Source: Bryum argenteum
Lineage: Eukaryota > Streptophyta > Bryopsida > Bryales > Bryaceae
Direction: 5' to 3'
Assembly: GCA_037043015.1 (NCBI GenBank)
Contig: CM073322.1
Span: 24,084,364-24,148,363 of the forward strand
DNA length: 64,000 nucleotides
How positions within the stretch are numbered: position 1 is the stretch's first letter; each line of letters opens with the position of its first letter. The position numbers were made by a program, and so were the translations under genes. This document shows positions 15,924 to 63,970 of the stretch, piece by piece. The notes under the pieces were generated by a model. The model was not told where the DNA came from and ran no database searches. It worked only from the letters and a program-made list of their open reading frames with translations.

Positions 15924-16547
15924 TTAAGCGCTCCGAGTCTCGCCGCGAGTGTCGCGTCGCCGGGAGCCCGTCATCTCTCCGAAGTCGCGAGAAGCGGCAG
16001 CTCGGTCGGCAGCACGCTGAGCGAGCGCTTTCGTCCTGGAGCAGCGAGTCTTCTCGTCCAAGGTATCCCTGTTGGGCTCCAACACGCGCAGAAACTCGGG
16101 GGAGTCCGGAAAATTGAAACATTCCAGCCTCTGGTCGTCTTTCCACATGTAAACCCCGACGTCGAATGCTCTCGCGGCCTCCTCCGGCGTTCCAAAACTT
16201 CCTAGCCAGATCTTCTTCTTCTTCTGGTTGGTGTACAAGCCAACCGTGGGACGAATCTCCGACACCCACCGCTTGGTCTTTTCCAGCTGACGGACCCCTT
16301 TGAATCGCGGTTGCGGACGCGGCTTCTCAGGAATCTCTTCGAACATTATCAAGTTCACTTCCCCGGGTAACCCCACTGAAATCAGATTCTCGAAATGCTT
16401 GATCCGTAACGCATAGTACCCCTCCTTGAAATTCTTCCAGGCCCTCGGCGCACTCCACAGCTTCCATCCCTTCTTGCTCTTCTTCTTCGCCATCCCGGGG
16501 TCCTCCTGCTCCATCTTCGCCTCCAGCTCGCCGTTCGCATCATCCAT
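15924..16547 (-). CDS. Divergent AP2/ERF-domain transcription factor, single exon
   Basis: The 207-residue protein starts MDDANGELEAKMEQEDPG, followed by a Lys-rich patch (AKKKSKKGWKLW) that may be a nuclear signal. Residues about 80-145 form an AP2 domain: FKGVRQLEKTKRWVSEIRP, then IWLGSFGTPEEAARAFDVG and LECFNFPDSPEF. The family landmarks RW(V)xEIR, (V/I)WLG(T/S)F and EEAARAFD are all present. Unusual points are QLEKTK in place of the RxRPWG segment, an insertion VGLYTNQKKKK between the second and third strands, and YMWKDD where most members have an Ala/Arg-Gly stretch. It therefore sits outside the common DREB and ERF groups. An ATG 88 codons upstream in the same frame exists, but that extension is low-complexity. 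The tail (FGEMTGSRRRDTRGETRSA) is basic and unrecognised. Confidence 0.8.
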   Translation of the reverse strand: MDDANGELEAKMEQEDPGMAKKKSKKGWKLWSAPRAWKNFKEGYYALRIKHFENLISVGLPGEVNLIMFEEIPEKPRPQPRFKGVRQLEKTKRWVSEIRPTVGLYTNQKKKKIWLGSFGTPEEAARAFDVGVYMWKDDQRLECFNFPDSPEFLRVLEPNRDTLDEKTRCSRTKALAQRAADRAAASRDFGEMTGSRRRDTRGETRSA

Positions 16548-17900
16548 TGCACCCCACAAACTGAGAATAGCCGCTCCAAACCTAGCAGGACCAGGACCAG
16601 GACAGGACCCTGTCAATGTACAAGAGGATAAGGGTGCAAGTTGCAAAGCCCGCAGGTTAAGGTGGTCGAGGCTGTAGGTGGTTGAAGCTGCCCAGTAAGT
16701 GAAGAGTAGCCAGGGTGCTAGTGCTGGTGCAGTACAGATTGAGCGTGGCGGTGAGACTTGGAGGTGGAGGTGAGGAAAGGCTAAGGAGCTGGAGTTGGTA
16801 GAGAAGAGCACATTCCTTGTGCATCCTTTGGCTTGCTGTCCATGCCGATGCGAAAATAGCGGTAGCTTGACACGACTGCATAGAATAGTTTATGCGAGAC
16901 GGCAGCTGAAACGCTTTTGCATGTAGGGATATACATAGTAGGCAATTATGTGCAAGCTGGTAACTCTCTCGCCGGGCCAATTAATGAGAAAAATGGGAAG
17001 GCCTACGGATTGATCCAAAACTGTGCTATGTTAGAGTCCTCTTGCGTTTGCAGATTGCTGGGGAGGTTGGCTCCATGACTGTCCTCCGCCTGGTGAACAA
17101 TCTCCTTGCCAAGGATGTCCTCGTGTGTCAGTAAGTTATGTGCAAGGAATGCAGTGCAAGAGTCGACTTTCATATGTCGTGTGACTTGCATGATGTCAGT
17201 CGTGCCGACTTATTCACCAACATAGTAATAACGATCAGATGAGGATATTCCTGAACTTTCGAATCTGATTCCGGCACCCTATTCCAGTTACGGAAGAACC
17301 CATACCCGTGGGTACAGCAAACCCGAAGCACCAAGTTAGGCATGTTAATACGACTTTTTTTGGGTTCACGTCAACAGTAAGATCTCAATCTGGAACCCTA
17401 AATTCCTGAGCTTTTCCGTCATTTTATCCTCAGTGATCAATTTAAGTACAGACTTGGTCTCTTTACTGAAATAACGAATGAATATAAAAGAAGAAGAACA
17501 GTACTCCAACCTGTTGTATTACAAATTTCAGTGTTGCTAGGAAATCAATGAAAATTTAGCTAGAAGTTTGGGTGTTCTAATTTGAGATGCACCTATGAGT
17601 TTCCGTTTTCAAATTTGCACTTGTCGAAACAATCTAGTACTTGAGAAACACCCATCTTGAACTTCTCTAGTGAGCAACGTGCTGAAATGGTGGAAAAAGG
17701 TCATAATCAAAGCATCAAGATCATTGGTTAGGTAAAAATCAAATTCTTTTCGAAACTGGCATGTACTTTTTTGCATTGATGTAACATGTGTTTGCTGCAG
17801 TCATGTATCTGGTCAAAACATTGTCAATTTCCACAGAAGTCAGTCGTTGATGACAAAATTAGCAACTTTTCATGCACGTACTTTACAACTTCATAATTTT
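16548..17900. other. ERF gene upstream region; no further gene seen
   Basis: The first few hundred bases above 16547 are the 5' flank of the minus-strand ERF gene, with CT-rich and GA-rich tracts. The rest has short open frames only. A minus-strand frame at 17003-17191 contains CTAFLAHNLLTHEDIL, loosely like the end of some transposases, but nothing around it supports that. Confidence 0.4.
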
Positions 17901-28028: not shown

Positions 28029-29071
28029 TTGTTTGAGCACAGTTTACATCAAAGTTCGATACGGAAGTGGACACTTACAAATGAGGAGCAATCACTCATT
28101 ATTGGAATGCGCCGAGGTGGGATGAGGCCATCTGATATTGCGGAGAAATTGAGCATGCCTCACTCCATAATTTCAACGGTTATCATTAAATGGAAGATAT
28201 TTGGTTGCATGACAACTTAAAGTGGGGGACACAGATCGCGCAAATTGTCTCATCGCGCGCTACGCATCTTAACTCAAGACATCTATCAATATCTACGCCA
28301 ACGTCTTGTTATTCTTGCCGCAAAATATCAGGTGCATCACAATACCATGCAAAAATATATACGTAATCTAGGCTTTGGAAATCGCATAGCTTCAATAAAG
28401 CCATATCTCAATGTAGTGCATAAAGCAACTAGGTTAGTATTTGATTGCAAGTATAAGCATTGGACAATAGAAGATTGGTACAAGGTCATTTGGACACATG
28501 AATCGTCATTTGAACTTCAAAAGAATTCTCGACAGATTCAAATATGGCGAAAACCTCATAAAAAGTATTTGGCAGAATGTTTAGCGCCTACCTTCAAATA
28601 TGGAAGAACATTTGTGATGGTTTGGGGTGCGTTTACTGGTTTTGACAAATCTCCATTAGTTATTATGCCTCAAGGAAACAGAAGTGCTGCACATTTTGTA
28701 AAAAATGTGTATGAAAGTACTTTGAGCGGGTTTTATTTCATGCGCGATAATCCTCATGAGCTCACACTCATGGAAGATGGAGCTCCTATTCATCAAAGTA
28801 AGTTGCAAGAGGATTGGAGGCTAGCTCATGGCATGAAGAAGTTGGATTGGCCTCCGTACTCACCTGATCTAAATCCCATTGAAACATGTGGAAGATATTT
28901 AAAGATCGGCTTTGTTACCACACCATGCCAAAAAGTAAGCAAGAATTGATAGAATGCGTTCAACAATTATGGAATGAGATTCCCTTGGAGCAGTTGCAAC
29001 GCCTTATCTCAACCATGCCCAATCAAATTAGAGCAGTGATTTCAGCTAGAGGTGGAAGTACTAGGTGGTAG
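28029..29071 (+). pseudogene. Tc1-like (DD34E) transposase, decayed
   Basis: Tc1-like transposases cut and paste DNA at TA sites. The N-terminal part (WTLTNEEQSLIIGMRRGG to ISTVIIKWK) is a helix-turn-helix, followed by SGGHRSRKL and a second DNA-binding region. The catalytic region has VIWTHESSFEL (first Asp of the usual TDES is His), LMEDGAPIHQS (second Asp) and YSPDLNPIE (Glu), with exactly 34 residues between Asp and Glu. WPPYSPDLNPIE is the Tc1 hallmark. One in-frame stop lies at 28218-28220. A one-base frame change near 28885 moves the C-terminus (SKQELIECVQQLWNEIPLEQ) to another frame. With the Asp-to-His change, the copy is inactive. Terminal inverted repeats were not found. Confidence 0.85.
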
Positions 29072-32420: not shown

Positions 32421-33529
32421 TCAACCTTGGTGAAGACATCCTCACTCTTCCTTTCTTCTTCAACCTACACAACTTTTCTTCACCACACACCTTCCCACAC
32501 ACTAATAGACATCACCCTTGGTCTATACCTACTCTCCTATCAATCACAAACCCCAAGTCTTTCAACCACACACACACTACACACACACTACACACAAGAG
32601 GGAGAGAGAGAGAGGAAAAGCATCAAACCCTAGCCACAAGGAGAGAGACAAGTAAAAAGAAATGAGAAAGAAAGAAAAGATAAAGGGGAGGGGAAGCATG
32701 AGGGAGAAATCCTACTCCCTCACCTTCCTTCTTACCTTTCTACTTTCTAAATTGTCTATCTACCTCTAACTCTAATACTACCTCACATAAAATATTCTTC
32801 AATTCTAACAATTTAGTTATCCTTCCTAACATACAATCATGTAATTGTCACTAAATTGCCATACTCAATGCTTTTCATAATCATTCTAATAACTTTCGAG
32901 CCTATTTCTATAAATTCCAATTTAATGCATTTAGTCTATAGGAACCACACAAACTACTATAATCAAATGTATTTTGTATCTAGATATTCAATAACTAATA
33001 CGTGAGCCATTTGGATGGCTCACATCTACCCAGCCAAAAAATCTACTTTTTTGTTTTTACCTGCGTTTTGGGATGCCCTATTATGTTTCTCAGAAATTTT
33101 TGAGTCCAGAAATGAGGTCTACAACCCCGTTATATTGTCGTGTGCGCGTCATGGAGCTACGGGTGACATCAGCCATTAAAAATTAGGGGGCAAATATACC
33201 CCAATTTTTATTTGCTGGGCAGGGATTATTTGCCCCACGAAAGACTCCGTGACCAGCTCGCTGGCCTCCTTTAAGCAGATCTGATGTACTCTACATTTAA
33301 GACGTCTTCAACGTATCAAATATACATCTCATTCTGTGAAGTATTTGTCTTAGTCAGTCCTGCGTTGAGTCTTGCCCTGGCCGGCTTCCGGCTCGGGGCC
33401 ATCATGTTCCCTTTTTTTCCTCAGCAATTGGAATTTTTTCAGTTTGTTTCAAAAATAAATAAATAAAATATACATCTCATCATCTGCATAAATTATTAAG
33501 GCCATTGCATAAATTACTATACTTTTTAA

Positions 33530-33890
33530 CCCTTAAACGTCAGGCTATACGAATTTGGGCAGCCCAGTATTGGATCACAGCATCTTTTGAACTCGGGCAT
33601 CATGAATAGTGCACTTTTTGAACTTGGGCATCATGAATGATTCAATCAATGATGAGCTTGCAACCTCCTACAAGTATTGTACAACCCCAACCTACCTACC
33701 ACAATCCTTTCAAAGCACAAAATCACTCATACAAATTGTGATTTGAATTGTGAAATTTCACTTTTTGAATGCATCAGAAGAAGGTGACCAGTTTGACATC
33801 AAAATATAAGTGAAAAGTTGAGCACATTGAGAGCTACAGAGAAGATTCTGTTGGAAAAGGACCCCTCGGGTCACCTTGGACGTTTAAGGG
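33530..33890 (+). mobile_element. TTAA-flanked MITE, family A, copy 1 (361 bp)
   Basis: The element begins CCCTTAAACGTC and ends GACGTTTAAGGG, with TTAA at 33526-33529 and 33891-33894. A second copy of identical length (361 bp) and near-identical sequence lies at 41692-42052, and a third in reverse at 48230-48589. No coding sequence is present. The high similarity implies recent activity of a transposase supplied from elsewhere. Confidence 0.88.
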
Positions 33891-33894
33891 TTAA

Positions 33895-34250
33895 TGGATG
33901 GTGGCACAAACTTCATCATCAGATAGGAATATACTGAAAATCTTTTCTCGATATCCCAGGAGGCTAATTCTGAATTTGTGACCTGCCACTTGGCCGCAAA
34001 GCGCCAGCGCCAGGCGCCAGCACAATTGCATGTGCCCGGGTTACTAATCCCACTAGGCCTCTGCTATAAGCTTTCAACCGCTTCTTCATTATGTTGATTC
34101 TGTGCTAATCACGCCGGTCCTAAAAAAGGATTGGAGTTTTTATCTATCTTGATTCGATGTATTCATCCTATTTGTATGCCTCGTTTCTGTTTTTAGAGGA
34201 ACATGCTGCTGCTCGTTCGATCACTTCGATGTCAGGAAATCATGTGTGAC
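33895..34250 (+). repeat. Duplicated host segment, copy of 42110-42730
   Basis: The order ATCTTTTCTCGATATCCCA, GCATGTGCCCGGGTTACTA, CTGCTATAAGCTTTCAACC, CTTCTTCATTATGTTGATT, GCCTCGTTTCTGTTTTTAG and TTCGATCACTTCGATG is shared with 42170-42720. This copy lacks the short MITE at 42201-42369 but is interrupted at 34251 by the large foldback element. It therefore serves as an empty or filled reference for several insertions. Confidence 0.8.
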
Positions 34251-34424
34251 GCCGCTCACTAAATCCAATCCATGTTCCAAATGTCAGGCCCTGTTTTAGT
34301 ACTCTTTCCGCGAACCGCGAAATGAAAAGAAAGACAATTTTGCCCCGATCGCTGCGTCTTTCCCTTCCCGCACGCGTCTTTTCCTTTCCGATACACTTCA
34401 GCGCGTCTATCGTCCAATAACAGT

Positions 34425-34605
34425 ATCGGTAACCGATACCTCAAACCCCTCGGTAACCGATACCTCAAACCTCTTCGTAACCGATACCTCAAACCTTTCT
34501 GTAACCGATACCTCAAACCTTTCTGTAACCGATACTTCAAACCTTTTCGATACCTCAAACCTCTTCGTAACCGATACCTCAAACCTCACGATACCTAGAA
34601 CCTCT
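34425..34605 (+). repeat. Subterminal ~24-bp tandem repeats, left arm
   Basis: About seven variants of GTAACCGATACCTCAAACCT follow one another, with a final truncated unit. The right arm has the inverted counterpart at 37085-37260, where several units read TCGATTCTGA instead of TCGGTTACGA. Arrays have therefore diverged more than the coding part of the arms. Subterminal repeats often act as transposase binding regions; that role is inferred. Confidence 0.8.
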
Positions 34606-34643
34606 CGTGCACACCGTATTGGCGGGAAACAAAGCGATATTTC

Positions 34644-35192
34644 AGGGAGGGCTAGAGTGCGGCCAATGCTTCGTTGTTAAGTGCACCGACGCCGCCACCT
34701 GCAACCCCTAATCCTCTTCTATTGTCATCACAGATCCGTTTCCTTGCGGAGTGTACTATAGCAAGTCCAATCCCGCCTTCGTGTCATCGCGCTGCTAGAT
34801 AAGGACGGCACGGCGAGCTGCAGAATGTGGGCGAGAACGACATCATGTACAAGCGCCTGTCGTGCAAGTATGGTAACCACAACATGGCGTTTCAAGTGGA
34901 TGCGGGGTCGACGCCGTTTTGGTTGTCTTTCATGGTGACCTACGTGGAAGAACCTCGTGACATCGAGAGTGTCGAGATCAAGCACAACGGCAAGGAGTTT
35001 TTGGAGCTCGCTAAGCACAACTTGGGGGCCAACTCGTTGCTGATCAACATGTCGGCGCAGACATTCAAGGGTCCTTCTTCTATCAAGGTCACAACCAAGC
35101 TAAACAAACACTCCGTTGTGGCAGAGGACGCGATCCTTGAGGGATTTGAGCCCAGCAAGGTATACGAGAGCAAGGTGCACTTCAAGAACTAG
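34644..35192 (+). pseudogene. Expansin-like gene fragment, left arm
   Basis: Expansins loosen plant cell walls. An acceptor-like TTTCAG is followed by GGLECGQCFVVKCTDAATCN, the Cys-rich start of the double-psi barrel, ending in an in-frame stop; VITDPFPCGVYYSKSNPAFV follows near 34723. The intact frame 34827-35192 (121 codons) is the C-terminal CBM63 domain: YKRLSCKYGNHNMAFQVDAG, FWLSFMVTYVEEPRDIESVE, then LGANSLLINMSAQTFKGPSS and KVYESKVHFKN. The signal peptide, N-terminal exon(s) and part of the barrel are missing, so it is not a working expansin. It most resembles the expansin-like groups, not classic alpha-expansins. It lies within the terminal inverted repeat. Confidence 0.8.
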
Positions 35193-35849
35193 CGTGCAAT
35201 CTTCACAAAGTACACTGCAACTTGTGGTCTCGATAATGAAAGATTTTAAAGTGCGAGCTTTTGAGAGAGAGAGTATTATCGTCTAGAGTTTGTCCGATAG
35301 CATGGGGTCTTGGACAGAGATTTTCTCATAGAGAGTACTGTCGTAAGTGTCGTCTAGAGGTTGCGCGATAGCATGGGGTCTCGGACAGGTGAATTTATTC
35401 AGCTTCACCCTAGATTACCCACGGAAGCATTACAATGTACAATTGGTTACCTTTAAAGAATGTTCACATGCACAAAGAATGTACTTTGAAATTTTGAGCT
35501 TCTTGTGAAGTCTGAAGTTGTTATGGATCTGCCGGAGGAAATTTCAGTAAAGCATAGGACTCGACTATTTGGATTTTCTATCAGTATAGTAGAGTGCTTG
35601 ATAGTGCAGCTAAAAGATGTTTTGTGGCATTCTTTTTCACGCCAACCACTTGGTATTTTATGTTGTAATAATGGATACATGCAACGCTTTGAGCCTCTTG
35701 GGGCTGCTTTTTTCAATAACTTGCTTATCAATATTGAGAATGTATCCAAAAACTTTACTACACACACAGTTCTTCATACACAATGTGTCACTTGGCAGCA
35801 ACGTGTTTTATTTAACAGTGTTTGAAAGATGATGAGGTCACACTCATCA

Positions 35850-36095
35850 AACAACAACCGAGGTCATTATCGTCAACCACTTATCGAGGTGGTTATCGTC
35901 AACCACTTACCGAGGTGGTTATCGTCAATCACTTACCGAGGTCGTTATCGTCAACCACTTACCGAGGTCGTTATCGTCAATCACTTACCGAGGTCGTTAT
36001 CGTCAACCACCTACCGAGGTCGTTATCGTCAACCACCTATCGAGGTCGTTATCGTCAACCACCTATCGAGGTCGTTATCGTCAACCACCTACTAC
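35850..36095 (+). repeat. 26-bp tandem array in the loop of the foldback element
   Basis: About nine units of the type ACCGAGGTCGTTATCGTCAA plus CCACTT follow without spacers. A 26-bp period shifts frame with every unit, so the repetitive frames across it (YRGRYRQPLTEVVIVNHL) are not genuine genes. Confidence 0.88.
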
Positions 36096-36484
36096 ATGAC
36101 ACTAAATGATATGTCTTTGTTTGTCCAATAATCAATTATCAACTGAATTTCATGTCCATCGTTCTTGAATAAGTCATACTCGTAGATATGGTAAGAAAAG
36201 ACACAAAATGTGTATTAAAGGGCAAATCAAATTGGACAATTGCACAATCCGAGCACTGAGGCCATCAATCTTACAAAGCTAAACCTGTTTACTAGTAAGT
36301 GGTACTCTACACATTCTAAAAGCTTCAAGCTACTTAAATTTACAATTCATAGAAAAGCTCTATCCGAGACCCCATGCTATTGGGCAAACTCTAGATGATA
36401 ATACTCTCTCTCTCAAAAGCTCGCACTTTAAAATCTTTCATTATCGAGACCACAAGTTGCAGTGTACTTTGTGAAGATTGCACG

Positions 36485-37036
36485 CTAGTTCTTGAAGTGC
36501 ACCTTGCTCTCGTATACCTTGCTGGGCTCAAATCCCTCAAGGATCGCGTCCTCTGCCACAACGGAGTGTTTGTTTAGCTTGGTTGTGACCTTGATAGAAG
36601 AAGGACCCTTGAATGTCTGCGCCGACATGTTGATCAGCAACGAGTTGGCCCCCAAGTTGTGCTTAGCGAGCTCCAAAAACTCCTTGCCGTTGTGCTTGAT
36701 CTCGACACTCTCGATGTCACGAGGTTCTTCCACGTAGGTCACCATGAAAGACAACCAAAACGGCGTCGACCCCGCATCCACTTGAAACGCCATGTTGTGG
36801 TTACCATACTTGCACGACAGGCGCTTGTACATGATGTCGTTCTCGCCCACATTCTGCAGCTCGCCGTCGTCCTCTTCTATCTATCTAGCGGTAGCGATGA
36901 CACGAAGGCGGGATTGGACTTGCTATAGTACACTCCGCAAGGAAACGGATCTGTGATGACAATAGAAGAGGATTAGGGGTTGCAGGTGGCGGCGTCGGTG
37001 CACTTAACAACGAAGCATTGGCCGCACTCTAGCCCT
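36485..37036 (-). pseudogene. Expansin-like gene fragment, right arm
   Basis: This is the inverted counterpart of 34644-35192. The C-terminal domain frame 36485-36850 translates identically over all 121 residues to the left arm. The region before it differs by small insertions around 36865-36895, and the same stop follows DAATCNP. Both copies therefore share the first defect, which must predate the arm duplication, while identity of the last 366 bases implies a recent event or gene conversion. Confidence 0.8.
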
Positions 37037-37084
37037 CCCTGAAATATCGCTTTGTTTCCCGCCAATACGGTGTGCACGAGAGGT

Positions 37085-37260
37085 TCTAGGTATCGTGAGG
37101 TTTGAGGTATCGGTTACGAAGAGGTTTGAGGTATCGAAAAGGTTTGAAGTATCGATTCTGAAAAGGTTTGAGGTATCGATTCTGAAAAGGTTTGAGGTAT
37201 CGATTCTGAAGAGGTTTGAGGTATCGATTCTGAGGGTTTGAGGTATCGGTTACCGATACT
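37085..37260 (-). repeat. Subterminal ~24-bp tandem repeats, right arm
   Basis: Variants of AGGTTTGAGGTATCG repeat about seven times. See the left-arm array at 34425-34605. Unit composition differs between arms. Confidence 0.78.
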
Positions 37261-37506
37261 GTTATTGGACGATAGACGCGCTGAAGTGTATCGGAAAGGA
37301 AAAGACGCGTGCGGGAAGGGAAAGACGCAGCGATCGGGGCAAAATTGTCTTTCTTTTCATTTCGCGGTTCGCGGAAAGAGTACTAAAACAGGGCCTGACA
37401 TTTGGAACATGGATTGGATTTAGTGAGCGGCATGTGTGACCAATGAGCACTGATATTCTGCTCAGTGACGTTGCGGATTAAAATTGCTCGATTTAGGGTC
37501 CCTTTA

Positions 37507-37954
37507 GAGCATGCCCAATCGAAACGGTAACGGCTCCCTGTAACGGCAACTCACGGGCCCGGCAGTCTCGGCAAGCTCTAACGCGCACTGCGTGGCTCCC
37601 TCCAATCTCCCGTGTCTCTCTATAGCTCTCCCGGTCTCGGCAATTTTTTCCTCTTTGCCGTGAGAGCTTGCTCCTCCCTGTAGCGGCAGTCAATGCCACG
37701 ATGGCAACATTTCATTCGGGAAGAGCTAGGAAGGGCAAGAACTTCAGCGCGGAGGAGGAGCGAGGACTGTGTAGCATTTTTGTGCTCGACGTGGCTGCCC
37801 ACAAAGCCCTGGAAGAGGATCGCGTGGAACGTTTGACGGGCGTGGGTTGGATCAGGAGCCCGTCAATTTCGAAATGCACCGCATTTTCCGTCATCAGGAG
37901 TCCCGTTACAACACGTTTGGAGGGCGCTTTACAGGGAGTTGATTGGGCATGCTC
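37507..37954 (+). mobile_element. Tourist-like (PIF/Harbinger) MITE with a Myb/SANT remnant
   Basis: The element starts GAGCATGCCCAATC and ends with its exact inverse GATTGGGCATGCTC. TTA lies outside both ends (37504-37506 and 37955-37957), the 3-bp duplication of PIF/Harbinger. At about 37701-37830 the frame MATFHSGRARKGKNFSAEEE with RGLCSIFVLDVA resembles the start of the Myb/SANT-like accessory protein of Harbinger elements (basic patch, then KNFxxEEE). The rest of that protein and the transposase are missing. GC content is above the flanks. Confidence 0.82.
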
Positions 37955-41425: not shown

Positions 41426-41691
41426 CCCTTTAAACACTAGGTAACTGGTCCCATCGTCGTACCATTGAAGATATCAGACAAGGGCCGACGACGCTCAGTT
41501 TCTGGACTCAATTTTCCATCGCACCTAAAACGACAACCGTCTTCCTTTCAAGCGTCGTTTGGAAGACTTGTGAGTTACCGGTGATATGCATTGCAGGACT
41601 GATGAGACCATGCACTGGAACTCGGAGCCAGAATGTGCAGCACTTCCGGTGCTTGGGTGATAAACGACCCTTCTGTGTTGCAGATTGTTAA

Positions 41692-42052
41692 CCCTTAAAC
41701 GTCTAGCTATACGGATTTGGGCAGCCCAGTATTGGATCACAACATCTTTTGGACTTGGGCATCATGAATAGTGCACTTTTTGAACTTGGGCATCATGGAT
41801 GATCCAATCAATGATGAGCTTGCAACCTCCTACAAGTATTGTACAACCCCAACCTACCTACCACAATCCTTTCAAAGCACAAAATCACTCATACAAATTG
41901 TGATTTGAATTGTGGAATTTCACTTTTTGAATGCATCAGAAGAAGGTGACCAGTTTGACATCAAAATATAAGTGAAAAGTTGAGCACATTGAGAGCTACA
42001 GAGAAGATTCTGTTGGAAAAGGACCCCTCGGGTTACCTTAGACGTTTAAGGG
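41692..42052 (+). mobile_element. TTAA-flanked MITE, family A, copy 2 (361 bp)
   Basis: The ends are CCCTTAAACGTC and GACGTTTAAGGG, with TTAA at 41688-41691 and 42053-42056. It has the same length as copy 1. The flanks read CAGATTG before and AGAAACAGATTC after; the duplicated host DNA at 42963-42985 reads CAGATTGGTAAAGAAACAG without the element, showing the empty site with one four-base target (GTAA, one substitution from TTAA). Confidence 0.9.
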
Positions 42053-42200
42053 TTAAAGAAACAGATTCAGTTCTATATTGCACTAGTGACAATTTTGTCT
42101 CGTAAGGCAACACTGCATAAATTACGGTAACTTCTACAGGACCGTGGCTTAACTTCGTCATCGGACAGGAACGTACTGTAAATCTTTTCTCGATATCCCA

Positions 42201-42369: not shown

Positions 42370-42739
42370 GATATCTCAGCAGGCTGTTGCCGCCCTGCCA
42401 CTTGGCAGCAGATCGCAAGCGACAGGCGCATGTGCCCGGGTTACTAGTCCCACGAGGCTTCTGCTATAAGCTTTCAACCACTTCTTCATTATGTTGATTG
42501 TATGTATTCATCCTGTTTGCATGCCTCGTTTCTGTTTTTAGAGGAACATGCTGCGGATCCAATGATCCTCGGATCCTTTTTTTCATTTTGAGTTGACGAA
42601 TTTCAGAACAGTTGTCCAGGACGCGCGTCAACCGTGAAACGGTTGGGAGCGTGTTTAACAATAATTACTTATCTTAACACCAGGAGGCTGCTGGTTCGAT
42701 CACTTCGATGGGAGGAAATCATGAGTGATCAATCATGTC

Positions 42740-43087: not shown

Positions 43088-44618
43088 TTACACGAAGATT
43101 CCGACTCCTGACCCAGCCCTCTGCAGCTGCGCACCTAAAGGATGGATTGCAGTGTCCGACTCCCAGGCCTCCATCTGTCTAAGAATGTGTGGAGCCATGG
43201 ATGGAGACATTCGAGTCTTCTGCGCTGGAGTGAGATATTTGGCACCGCCAACTGTGCCCACGCAGTCGCGTCCACTACCGCACTGGCACTCGAAGGGACA
43301 AGACATTTCCCATTCGGTTTCGAGGTAGTTCCAAGTCACTTCTTCCCCCTTTACGATCGGCTTAATGGCAACGAAGACGGGAAACACTTCTTCCGGGTAT
43401 GCCTCGGCAAGCGCTTTGAGGGAAGTGAACTCGGAAGCGTGTGCAGACGGGCCAGGGAACTTAAGAACCGTATTTGGCGAGCATGAATGGTTGATGAGGA
43501 CGAGACAAGTCGAATTTCGCACATGCACATTCTCGCCGATGGCGTAGGTGTATCGAGTGCACTTGGACTCGATGACCCCGTCGAACATACCAATAACTTT
43601 GCCGACTGGGATATCTCGGGCCGCCACAGTGAAACGGAACTCGGGAGAACGTTCGAAAATCTCAAGATCTGCAGTCGAGCAAGACGTATTGATTTGTCAA
43701 GAACAGTAACTAAGATTCGACTGGTAAAGCGACACCACGAACAGAATATGCACAATCTGCTCACGAATAACAAAACAAGCAACCGTGATTGAGAGACAGA
43801 TCGAGAGAAGCGGCAGTACCGTCGAACCCCTTGGCGAAGTTGGAAATCTCGTCCCCCGACAGAAATTGGGCTACATTAAGCTCTGCATTCAAGCAATACA
43901 ACAGCAGATGAGAAGCATATATACATGTCGGTGCTTGGAGTACTAACTCAAAAGGGAGGTACGATGGAAAGTTGTTTTCGATCACAGGCGAGTAGAGAGA
44001 CCTTGAAACATGCACATTGTCCCGTCTCCGCATCAATCATCAAATTTAATCTGAAACATAGTTAAACTGAAAAAATACCAAAAAATACACACACGAGCTT
44101 ACAAACGCTACTCACAATAGTTTACCATCCTTGAATTCATCTCGTTAGATTGTATATTGCCTAATGTCAAGTTATCAATCTCAACTTTCTACACAGTAGG
44201 ATCTAGAGTTTCATCGCGTTGTTAAAATCAAATTTTACTTTCCAAAAGTTATTGCACCTTCAGAATATCAATAATTCATGCCAAGCGTCTCTTTTCTTAT
44301 GATTTTGCATTTTCTTCATCGTTACTTTTCATTCACAAGCTACATTACTCTAGGAAGCTCACTAACTCTAATCTTGTTTAGATAAATCATCTCTAGAGCT
44401 GCAGCAACAGACATCTAATTAGCGACAAATCATCATCCAATACCAATGCCAACACACGAAATGATTATTTCTCAAAACAGTAGAACAAGCAGAACAAACA
44501 AAGAAAATACTAGAGCTGCAGAAAATATCGATATCAATTGATCGAAACGGGCATTCGGTGTGTTACCATTTTGGTCTCCTTGGAACTCAGCCAACAGATC
44601 AGCCCCCAAAGTGCCCAT
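43088..44618 (-). CDS. Small SET-domain protein (putative protein-lysine methyltransferase), three exons
   Basis: Exons (minus) 44567-44618, 43820-43882 and 43088-43668 total 696 bases in phase, giving 231 residues. N-terminus: MGTLGADLLAEFQGDQN, then ELNVAQFLSGDEISNFAKGF. The SET core starts FTVAARDIPVGKVIGMFDG (the usual xxARDIPxGxxI), then LVLINHSCSPNTVL with the NHSC motif that binds S-adenosylmethionine, GEEVTWNYLETEW (usual GEExTxxY), and post-SET-like cysteines CPFECQCGSGRDCVG. Between NHSCSPNT and GEE lies SLKALAEAYPEEVFPVFVAI. It is much shorter than most plant SET proteins and carries no PHD, AWS or SRA domain. The substrate is not predictable; histone or non-histone proteins are possible. 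An additional internal exon cannot be excluded, but the three-exon model keeps frame. Confidence 0.75.
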
Positions 44619-48044: not shown

Positions 48045-48229
48045 GTGGATGAATTTGCTACATTGTCACAAAACTTCTGTAGGACAACGAGCGAGGACGA
48101 ACTGAAGGAAGCTTGAGGTGCATGCAAAACATGCCTTCGGGTGAGTCTTGCGGTAAGGAAGTTCCAGACTTCAATGCATTCCGAAACGCCCCAGGCTTTA
48201 TCGATCACAGAAATGTATGGCATCTTTAA

Positions 48230-48589
48230 CCCTTAAACGCCCAAGCAAGCCCCAGGGGCTTGATTCCAACAGAATCTTCACTGTAGCTCTCACTGTACTC
48301 ATCTTTTCACTTATATTTTGATGTCAAACTGGTCACCTTCTTGTGATGCATTCAAAAAGTGAAATTTTACAATTCAAATCAAAATTTGTATGAGTGATTT
48401 TGTGCTTTGAAAGGATTGTGGTAGGTAGGTTGGGGTTGAACAATACTTGTAGGAGGTTGCAAGCTCATCATTGATTGGATCGTTCATGATGCCCAAGTTC
48501 AAAAAGTGCACTATTCATTATGCCCAAGTCCAAAAGATGCTGTGATCCAATTTTGGGCTGCCCGTTTCAGACCCCATGGGCGTTTAAGA
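48230..48589 (-). mobile_element. TTAA-flanked MITE, family A, copy 3 (reverse)
   Basis: TTAA (48226-48229) is followed by CCCTTAAACGCCC; the other end reads GGGCGTTTAAGA before TTAA (48590-48593), so one terminal base is lost and one changed. The interior is the inverse of copies at 33530 and 41692 (for example CATCATTGATTGGATC near 48467). It is the most diverged of the three. Confidence 0.82.
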
Positions 48590-61202: not shown

Positions 61203-63970
61203 ATGGACAGGTATGATTTTCAGTACCCTGGATTTCAGTTCGAGCTTTTTTTCAGAAATTGGATATGGCATTGCATTGGTCTTAAGCACTATCCTTTAAG
61301 CGATTAATTTGCTTCACCTTGAAGCTGTTTGTTGAACAGGGCGACTGGCAAGAGGACTCTGATTCAGTCGAAGGCGTGTTGCGATCACAATGCGGCTGCT
61401 GCTCCTGCTCATGTATGCGCCTTTCCGAACTCTTGCAGTATGCATTTTCTGAAAACCCTAGATTTGTGAGGGTATCTGAGCAGAGGTTTATTCTTTGTTG
61501 CCAAGCAATTCATTCCTAGGGTTTTTTAGGAAGAATCTCGACATGCAGAAAGAGTTTTGGAACAATTTTTCAGTTCATTCTTGCCGCCATGGCTAGGTCC
61601 GTTAGTTTTGGGCCATGACGAGGTTTAACAGTTTGCGCCATTACGACGTAGGATAGTTTGCTCCATTACGAGGTACGATAGATTGCGTAGTTTGCGCCAT
61701 TACGAGGTACGGTAGTTTGCGCCATGACGAGGTACGATAGTTTGTGCCTCTGGCGAAGTATAATAGTTACTGCCATGGCCAGGAATACTAGTTTGTGCCA
61801 TGGCTAGGTTTAATAGTTTGTGCTTGTGTGTTGATCATTTGTAGCAGGGGCAACTGGACATTTTTCCAGCAGGTGTCCGCTTCGATCCCAGCGATGAAGA
61901 GTTGCTGGAACATCTAGCGGAGCAAATCGGTCGTGGCTCGAAACCACCTCACCCTCTGCTTCATCAGTTTATTCGGACCTTGGAGGAGGAGGACGGCATT
62001 TGTCGCACTCATCCCGAGAACTTGCCAGGTACAAACTTTTCTTTATTTCCATAGTTAAGCATACGGAGTAGTTGCCATATCAATATTCAACGTTAAGAAA
62101 GGGAAGTATTGGACGCCAAAATTTCCATCGTGGCATCTTAATGGTACTGAAATATGGAATCTTTCTAGAATTTCAGGTCAAGTATTAGCTTTTTGTTGTG
62201 CCAGAATTGTTTCGGTACATGCTGAAACAAATGTTGTATGAGGCAGGGGTGAGGAAGGATGGATCCAGTTGTCACTATTTTCATAAACCTTCCATGGCCT
62301 ACACCACCGGAACACGCAAGAGGCGAAAGATCCAAACTGACGACGTTCCAGATGGAGGTCCTGATGTCCGCTGGCACAAAACTGGAAAAACTCGGCCTGT
62401 CACTCAGGTTCGTGCCCTTTGCATTCTCCCATCCTTTTGAGATACAAAGAGTAAACAAAACATTCAAATCACAAAATATATCACCTTATTCATCATAATA
62501 AGTCACTTGCACTTCGAGATGTCACAATGAAACTTTCACTTCTTGAAAATGTCACTGGAAGGAATGGTTTATTTTTAAGAACACTGAATATCTAATTAGT
62601 GTGTAAGCTAATGCTGAATACACTAACATCAACGCTTTGTAACATTATGGCTTGCCATCTGTGTGGCTTTTTCAGAACGGGAAGGTCTTGGGGCATAAGA
62701 AGATCATGGTTCTGTACAGAGCCACGGGGAAGAAGTCGAAGAATCTTAAAACGAACTGGGTGATGCATCAGTATCACTTGGGTGGCAATGAGGAGGAAAC
62801 AGACGGAGAGCTCGTCGTGTGCAAGGTCTTCTTTCAGAAGGCGCCTCGCAGCTGCCCAAGCCGCAAACCAGGAGCTGCAGCAGCGGATGAGGAGGAATGT
62901 GAGCCATCCGAAAGTGACATTGGTTTCCAGGAGCCAACAGCCGGGCTGAGCGGTGATTCGCCTTCCGCGTCCGTGGTGACCCGAGGGTTACCTCCTCCAC
63001 CTACTCCCAAAGCTTATACTGGCTCCCGCACTGCCAAGCAACTCTACGCCGAGCCAACCGAATCCATTTCGGAGATTTTCGACCCTTCTGCTCTTGCCAC
63101 ACAGTCCAAGCAGAAACAGAAGGCAGCCTTCGTAAGTACTACATCTCTTTTCTTAAGAATGATGACAATGGCTTGTTCCAATTCCACTCATTTGTGACCT
63201 TTCACAGGTACAGGAGCGAGTTGGTGTCGATATGAATCAGGTACCGGCTGGTTACGAAACTCATGCACTTGGAGCAGGGCTGGGAACTCCTCTCTACGGA
63301 GAGAAGCAAGTTGCACACACGAACGGAGTATTGGGAGGTCATATATCATGTGAGGGAGAAGCCGAGTCTTACCACACCGAGTCTTACCACACTGTGAATC
63401 TTAATGACGAGCATCAGTCGTGGCAAGACGATCCCTACGCTATGCTAGATGACCCTGCTCTTACAGAGCTTCTGTGTGATGAGCATCTCAACGGTGATCC
63501 ATTAGTGGAGGTTTGTCCCGATCCTCTATGCTGATGCCATCTTCATGCTTTCCTTCAGTTGGGAGGATTTTTTTCTCATGGAACCATTGATTGCAAGTGC
63601 AGGATGAAGAGTACCAGGATGTAAACTTCCGGAACCTTTCCTACGACGTGGGGTGCAGCATGGATGGCGAGCCCTTAGGAGGTGACGCAAATGCCGAAGG
63701 CAACCCGATATCAACCCTCGATGGCATTGAACTGGACACTCCTCCCGAGATGATGAGCACTCCTCCTTTGTTGGATACTCCTCTGGAGGTTCGTGCCGAT
63801 CACTTGAGGGGGAGTTTGTATGCCCTAAGTAAGAATGTGAATATAGTCTTGATGGTTTTTTGGGGTGGTTGATGCAGTACCCTGTTGTGACCTCCCAGGA
63901 AGTGAGGGATTGGTGCGACAAGCACCGTGTTGTGGATCTTGACAATACCGATAGCCAGTCGACCACTTGA
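61203..63970 (+). CDS. SOG1: SOG1-like NAC transcription factor, eight exons, complete
   Basis: Exons 61203-61210, 61340-61412, 61848-62028, 62247-62407, 62676-63131, 63208-63510, 63603-63788 and 63878-63970 total 1461 bases in phase, giving 486 residues. SOG1 is the plant master regulator of the DNA-damage response, activated by ATM/ATR phosphorylation of C-terminal Ser-Gln sites. SOG1-specific NAC features are [92 protein letters not shown] and [20 protein letters not shown]. The N-terminus [20 protein letters not shown] has a Cys/His cluster. Near the C-terminus [10 protein letters not shown] matches the conserved IELDTPPEF block, and the tail carries two Ser-Gln sites (TSQE and DSQS). The start is fixed by an eight-base first exon, ATGGACAG|GTATG. 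Confidence 0.9.
61590..61835 (+). repeat. ~26-bp minisatellite in intron 2 of the SOG1-like gene
   Basis: About nine variants of TAGTTTGCGCCATTACGAGG followed by TACGA follow one another inside the 435-bp intron. Units drift towards GCCATGGC variants at the 3' side. The splice sites are outside the array. Confidence 0.8.

Follow-up and report, generated by a model that had tools for sequence, protein, structure and literature searches.

Background

How does part of a host gene come to lie in both arms of a transposon, and what might RNA from such arms do? The question is raised by a 3,181-bp element at positions 34251-37431 of a 64,000-bp stretch of the Bryum argenteum genome (C2:24084364-24148363; hereafter the window). 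The genome searched comprises 258.8 Mb in 25 contigs, and C-numbers denote contigs or the elements on them. The element is very probably a non-autonomous Mutator-like element (MULE) of the Pack-MULE type with foldback arms, and belongs to a family whose arms mostly evolve in concert. A preliminary description of the window had proposed a Mutator-like foldback element with an expansin-like gene in each arm, and had suggested that its RNA would silence expansin genes; the structural part of that proposal held up better than the functional part.

Structure of the element

The inverted termini read GCCGCTCACTAAATCC and are flanked on both sides by a perfect 9-bp repeat, ATGTGTGAC (34242-34250 and 37432-37440), as had been described. 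The random odds of a perfect 9-bp duplication are 4^-9, or ~4e-6, and the length lies within the ~9-11 bp of MULE target duplications. The inverted arms, put at about 1.07 kb in the preliminary description, measure 1,076 and 1,081 bp and are 97.9% identical in a gapped alignment (1,072 aligned columns with 23 mismatches and 5 gaps); kilobase arms at 98% are not explicable by chance. Together they occupy 2,157 of the 3,181 bp and both contain 24-bp tandem repeats, which is the organization of a foldback element. The features of the element are as follows.

34242..34250, no strand: left 9-bp target site duplication, ATGTGTGAC (flank comparison)
34251..35326, + strand: left arm, 1,076 bp (gapped arm alignment)
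34251..34448, + strand: outer terminal repeat, left, 85-91% over ~190 bp against longer elements
34429..34587, + strand: 24-bp tandem repeat zone of the left arm
34616..35192, + strand: captured beta-expansin fragment, with partial domain 1 containing an in-frame stop, complete Expansin_C and a stop codon
35193..35326, + strand: post-stop region, resembling the 3' region of the C11 expansin-cluster relic
35327..36350, no strand: spacer separating the two arms, its junctions with both of them being recognizable in eight elements
35350..35388, + strand: extra 39-bp partial copy of the inner end of the arm (first copy 35279-35317)
35857..36092, + strand: 26-bp tandem repeat in the spacer, ~9 copies
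36240..36350, - strand: downstream flank of the presumed donor, beside the right arm only, collinear with the relic C11:3651928-3652202
36351..37431, - strand: right arm, 1,081 bp (arm alignment)
36485..37068, - strand: second copy of the beta-expansin fragment, in inverted orientation
37097..37253, - strand: 24-bp tandem repeat zone of the right arm
37234..37431, - strand: outer terminal repeat, right
37432..37440, no strand: right 9-bp target site duplication, ATGTGTGAC

None of the four open reading frames (ORFs) of at least 120 aa in the element contained a transposase domain in Pfam, as is the case for Pack-MULEs, which lack a transposase of their own. The captured fragment is enclosed by terminal repeats, as in a Pack-MULE, if the terminal repeat is taken as the outer ~190 bp common to longer elements; in strict geometry, the expansin fragment is itself part of the inverted arms. 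Rfam returned nothing at gathering scores, and a search of a protein collection gave one match among four candidates.

The two arms differ unevenly. Stretches rich in mismatches separate perfect runs of 195, 261 and 471 bp, no difference is present in the outermost 195-198 bp, and 15 of the 23 mismatches fall in 34452-34529, within the 24-bp repeats. The 471-bp run covers 34810-35280, and the C-terminal expansin domain is therefore translated identically in both arms, as the preliminary description had stated (0 differences in 111 compared codons).

The captured fragment and its presumed donor

Each arm contains an Expansin_C domain (Pfam, E 7e-10), for which the nearest solved proteins in PDB are Phl p 1 and beta-expansin 1a. 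Against a 294-codon stop-to-stop frame in L048 (C11), used as the reference, the arms cover approximately residues 99-152 and 167-294 at 69-73% identity; in the right arm the second block begins at residue 164 (164-294). A complete expansin gene has a signal peptide, domain 1 and domain 2, whereas the captured fragment has an in-frame stop, has lost part of domain 1, and lacks both a start and a signal peptide. The expansin-like gene reported in both arms is thus a beta-expansin fragment in each, a damaged 3' part only.

The genome contains an expansin cluster on C11, as well as more distant expansin loci. Three genes sampled in the cluster align with the arm in BLAST at 76-77% DNA identity, these matches stop within ~10 bp of the stop codon, and in the tree alignment the arms diverge from the three genes by ~20%. 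A relic inside the same cluster, C11:3651928-3652202 (L047), matches in 220 of 279 columns, and its collinear match begins where the coding region ends (window 36515), crosses the inner end of the arm and extends into the right spacer as far as window 36240. The relic is an expansin 3' end without a gene body, and is a candidate donor locus. The donor itself, judging from the sequences, was presumably a paralogue that has since been lost. The right side would be nearer to the original capture because the relic matches collinearly past the arm into the right spacer, so that the downstream flank of the presumed donor is kept on the right side only; the left arm would then be an inverted copy of the right.

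A dispersed family and its longer relatives

The outer 198 bp of the element gave at least 40 matches in the genome, many of them as inverted pairs (40 of 72 candidates were scored). At least nine two-arm relatives are dispersed on several chromosomes. Eight two-arm elements are bounded by recognizable ends (window, C4b, C8, C4a, C7, C6, C9 and C3a), and all eight are flanked by target duplications, perfect at 9 bp in seven and 10 bp long in one; 10-bp duplications, here and below, were read off printed flanks. A ninth two-arm element, C1, has an imperfect duplication (8/10), as does a tenth pair, C5 (8/9), the arms of which are 61.7 kb apart. The C5 pair (C5:20026004-20087754; L052 and L051) has arms 95.5% identical over 1,062 columns, and may be a very large member or one filled by nested insertions. 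Five single-arm copies (C3b, C4c, C9s, C11s and C8s) occur in the fetched stretches, within which their far ends were not found. A further candidate, L056 (C2:16060800-16064300), in which no stretch of more than 40 bp matched the arms or the spacer, was rejected as a member.

A search with the joined flanks of the window element found no full empty site. Pieces of the left flank (window 33982-34250) have a diverged paralogue ~8 kb away at 42394-42728, which contains one target-like 9-mer and no element, and of which the right-side homology amounts to just 4 bp.

Longer elements match the outer ends at 85-91% over ~190 bp. Five were fetched from, and the four with both ends fetched are all flanked by duplications, of 9 bp in two and 10 bp in two. 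The remaining fetched stretches of long elements are 85-98% identical to L039 in long blocks. In one element, L041, the only one tested in this way, three pieces joined across presumed introns matched the MULE transposase domain PF10551 (E 5.2e-8, 33.7 bits, cut-off 27.6) and, in the same join, PF21056 (E 8.7e-8, above cut-off); the PF10551 result was the same when one of the joined pieces came from L039. Judged by eye, ORFs of both L039 and L041 contain DDE-like and SWIM-like motifs. A second set of ORFs, presumably comparable in their motifs to the ULP/C48 protease genes of other MULEs, was not confirmed as such by Pfam.

L039 5035-9999 and L041 4913-9999, - strand: second ORF set
L045 2721-7450, + strand: second ORF set

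Other genomic copies with the same termini and a Mutator-type transposase, the two things by which the preliminary description proposed to tell a transposon from a simple inverted duplication, were both found and favour a transposon. With 9-10 bp duplications, common ends and a transposase domain in a longer relative, the assignment to Mutator-like foldback elements was borne out. The transposase of the long elements would move the 34251-37431 element in trans.

Evolution of the arms

An IQ-TREE phylogeny was built from 28 rows, comprising 25 arms and the three C11 genes; the short pieces C8s_R0 and geneC11a_R0 were omitted from the trees. The 25 arms form a single clade against the three genes with support of 100/100, and by this tree all 25 sampled arms descend from one captured expansin fragment. 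Within the clade, the two arms of an element are sisters with starred support in six of ten pairs (window 100/96, C4a 100/96, C8 100/100, C1 100/100, C5 100/98 and C4b 95/87); support is weaker for the C7, C6 and C3a pairs, and the tree left C9 unresolved. Within the expansin part, seven elements have left and right arms 0-2% apart (for C7, 145 sites were compared) and the C5 arms are 4.0% apart; in seven of the ten pairs the two arms are mutual nearest partners. Across 290 comparisons between elements, arm divergence ranges from 0.3% to 26%, the minimum being that between C6 and C9, a recent copy. In gapped alignments, the arms of the ten two-arm elements differ by 0.2-4.5% substitutions.

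Nine elements were aligned, and both arm/spacer junctions were recognizable in all of them but C7, from which the left junction is missing. Because both junctions are common to these eight, the inverted layout predates their split. Had left and right arms then diverged as separate lineages, the tree would group left with left and right with right. Approximately unbiased (AU) tests, for which the arms were oriented by the spacer and the C7 arms omitted, rejected this arrangement both when eight left arms were set against the eight right ones (p 5.5e-10) and in three two-element sets (p 4.0e-9, 5.2e-5 and 9.1e-6). Homogenization within elements is therefore the best reading. The mismatches are also patchy. 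When mismatches were placed at random 5,000 times, a perfect run as long as that observed was reached in 0 placements for the window element, 3 for C1, 3 for C6, 42 for C8 and 74 for C3a, and this clustering supports conversion tracts in these five elements. Gene conversion may have homogenized the arms, as may repair templated by fold-back in the course of transposition.

Several results weigh against a MULE family with arms evolving in concert. The left and right arms of C4b and C3a differ in the expansin part by 6.3% and 8.7%, values that depend on the alignment (2.9% and 2.5% mismatches, with many gaps, in the gapped alignments against 6.3% and 8.7% in the tree alignment). In C4b, C9 and C3a the nearest relative of one or both arms is in a different element, and the long-run test was not significant in C4b (940 of 5,000), C4a (3,597), C7 (2,213) or C9 (3,959). 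Fold-back repair and other gene conversion are indistinguishable here. On the side of the transposase, no single long-element ORF reached a transposase match above the Pfam cut-off (best PF21056, E 0.017), these scans otherwise giving DUF5575_C at 0.0003-0.003, below cut-off, and two weak, chance-level matches; of the 52 matches listed when the genome was searched with PF10551, none lies at the long elements. Since the pieces fail singly and that search did not list these loci, the transposase assignment depends on splicing that is plausible but unproven, in a single element.

The most serious competing account, itself improbable, is that the likeness of arms within elements was produced during assembly or polishing of the inverted repeats, given that 1-kb arms cannot be placed uniquely by short reads. 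Differences between arms nevertheless persist, with 23 mismatches in the window element and 30 in C4b, and are patchy in five elements. Moreover, the C5 arms, 61.7 kb apart and 4.0-4.5% different, pair at 100/98, and the left arms of the window element and C4b stay distinct at 3% apart. Slightly less probable again is that the inverted arms were made independently in each element, their likeness reflecting recent separate duplications. The same tree would be expected from such a history, but the junctions and parts of the spacer are recognizably the same in the window element, C4b, C8, C4a, C1, C6, C9 and C3a.

Similarity between terminal repeats is often taken as a sign of a young element. 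With arms homogenized within elements, arm identity need not date the insertion. A family with recognizable ancestral junctions indicates such homogenization, and shows a route by which a captured gene becomes part of a transposon end.

Predicted hairpin RNA and possible silencing

In a folding computation on the predicted element transcript, 1,061 of the 1,076 left-arm bases pair into the right arm. The preliminary description had suggested that read-through RNA of this kind would match expansin genes and yield small RNAs that silence them. We consider this account for beta-expansin genes to have a slim chance, a little below that of independently made arms. The pairing speaks for it, as does a report, in its accessible part, that captured fragments can be reservoirs of small interfering RNAs against donor genes (PMC13317346). 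The predicted match to the host genes was nevertheless not borne out. No left-arm word of 21 bases (0/726) or 24 bases (0/723), and no right-arm word of 21 bases (0/731), was found perfectly in five C11 sequences (three genes, one fragment and one relic), and the sampled C11 genes are ~20% diverged. Allowing up to one mismatch, 20-23 of the left-arm 21-base words matched each of the three genes (at most 23 in any sequence), whereas 521 of 726 were perfect in a sister element, L031. In the accessible part of the maize Mu killer report, furthermore, the silencing transcripts were not read-through ones (PMC3440606).

With up to three mismatches, 167-188 of the 726 words matched each of the three genes, and the word test is compatible with silencing of expansin genes by small RNAs with mismatches. 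Any effect of such RNA would more likely be silencing of the element family itself: if the element is transcribed through, a hairpin RNA of ~1 kb may feed small RNAs mainly against the family and not against host expansin genes. The ten two-arm elements are a natural set for testing arm identity against small-RNA production. A bolder scheme, which we put forward tentatively and regard as rather unlikely in full, is that pairing of the folded-back arms during transposition or repair copies one arm anew onto the other in each cycle, that the gene fragment is in this way kept up as part of the terminal repeat, and that the hairpin acts as a family-wide self-silencer sparing the diverged host genes.

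Coding constraint

An Expansin_C frame that is open in both window arms might also have been maintained by selection as a protein. This is very doubtful, more so than host-gene silencing. Pairwise ratios of nonsynonymous to synonymous change (dN/dS) are below 1, at 0.40-0.52 in older pairs, and 11 overlapping arm pairs together have 126, 115 and 150 differences at the first, second and third codon positions, a mild excess at position 3 that favours selection and counts against our reading of the arms. Neutral simulations (three CpG settings, 200 runs each) gave similar dN/dS, however, and we dropped the constraint reading on that result; neutrality was not rejected in any of the 11 pairs at any of the three settings, the lowest P being 0.065 among 33 pair-settings. 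Stops are common to both arms in C8 and in C1, a stop is also present in C9s, the position counts imply one in both C5 arms, and the arms have neither start nor signal peptide. Hence there is no clear sign, at the level of sequence comparison, of protein-level selection on the arms.

Least credible of all, with practically nothing left in its favour beyond the inverted shape alone, is a simple local inverted duplication that is not a transposon, given the target duplications, the common ends, the copies on several chromosomes and the transposase domain in a longer relative.

Comparison with known systems

The comparisons below follow the accessible parts of the cited papers. Pack-MULEs (PMC3310237, PMC6431247, PMC13317346, PMC6446971) are likewise non-autonomous, make 9-10 bp duplications and amplify a host gene fragment along with themselves. 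Their fragments are described as enclosed between terminal repeats (PMC6431247), whereas here two mutually inverted copies of the fragment are joined to the terminal repeat, forming arms of ~1.08 kb. In the set covered by one MULE survey, terminal repeats measure 14-500 bp, and the survey links long ones to small RNAs (PMC6446971).

The Mutator/Foldback element Tm1 of root-knot nematodes (PMC3169594) resembles the present family in its 9-bp duplications, its composite foldback-like terminal repeats with short tandem repeats, and a MULE-type transposase in a related element. It differs in its nematode host and in terminal repeats consisting mainly of 13-15-bp tandem repeats, and it carries a gene, Cg-1, with no doubled host fragment in both arms described in the part of the report available. 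Mu killer of maize (PMC3440606) is a MULE in inverted arrangement: one and the same terminal repeat stands at either end, and a large segment of a gene is inverted and has hairpin potential; that segment, however, is an inverted transposase gene at one locus that silences MuDR, and here a host-gene fragment is found in a dispersed family. MULEs with multiple long terminal repeats (PMC3310237) also amplify unusual terminal repeats together with a captured gene fragment, but by tandem duplication, whereas here the gene has been drawn into inverted arms. A literature search of titles and the openings of abstracts, mostly without subscription papers and with few queries on expansin, found, among the papers listed, no expansin fragment in MULE arms; since the search was limited in scope, this is weak evidence of novelty.

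Other features of the window

The right flank of the element (window 37504-37740) belongs to a dispersed repeat family with 13 further places at 92-97%. A repeat of ~340-370 bp is present in the window in three copies at 93-97% (33523-33894, 41685-42056 and 48226-48563). Other ORFs of the window matched DDE_3 with a sub-cut-off Tc3-type helix-turn-helix (28221-28949), AP2 (15924-16889), SET (43088-43696) and, below cut-off, NAM (62643-63197) in Pfam.

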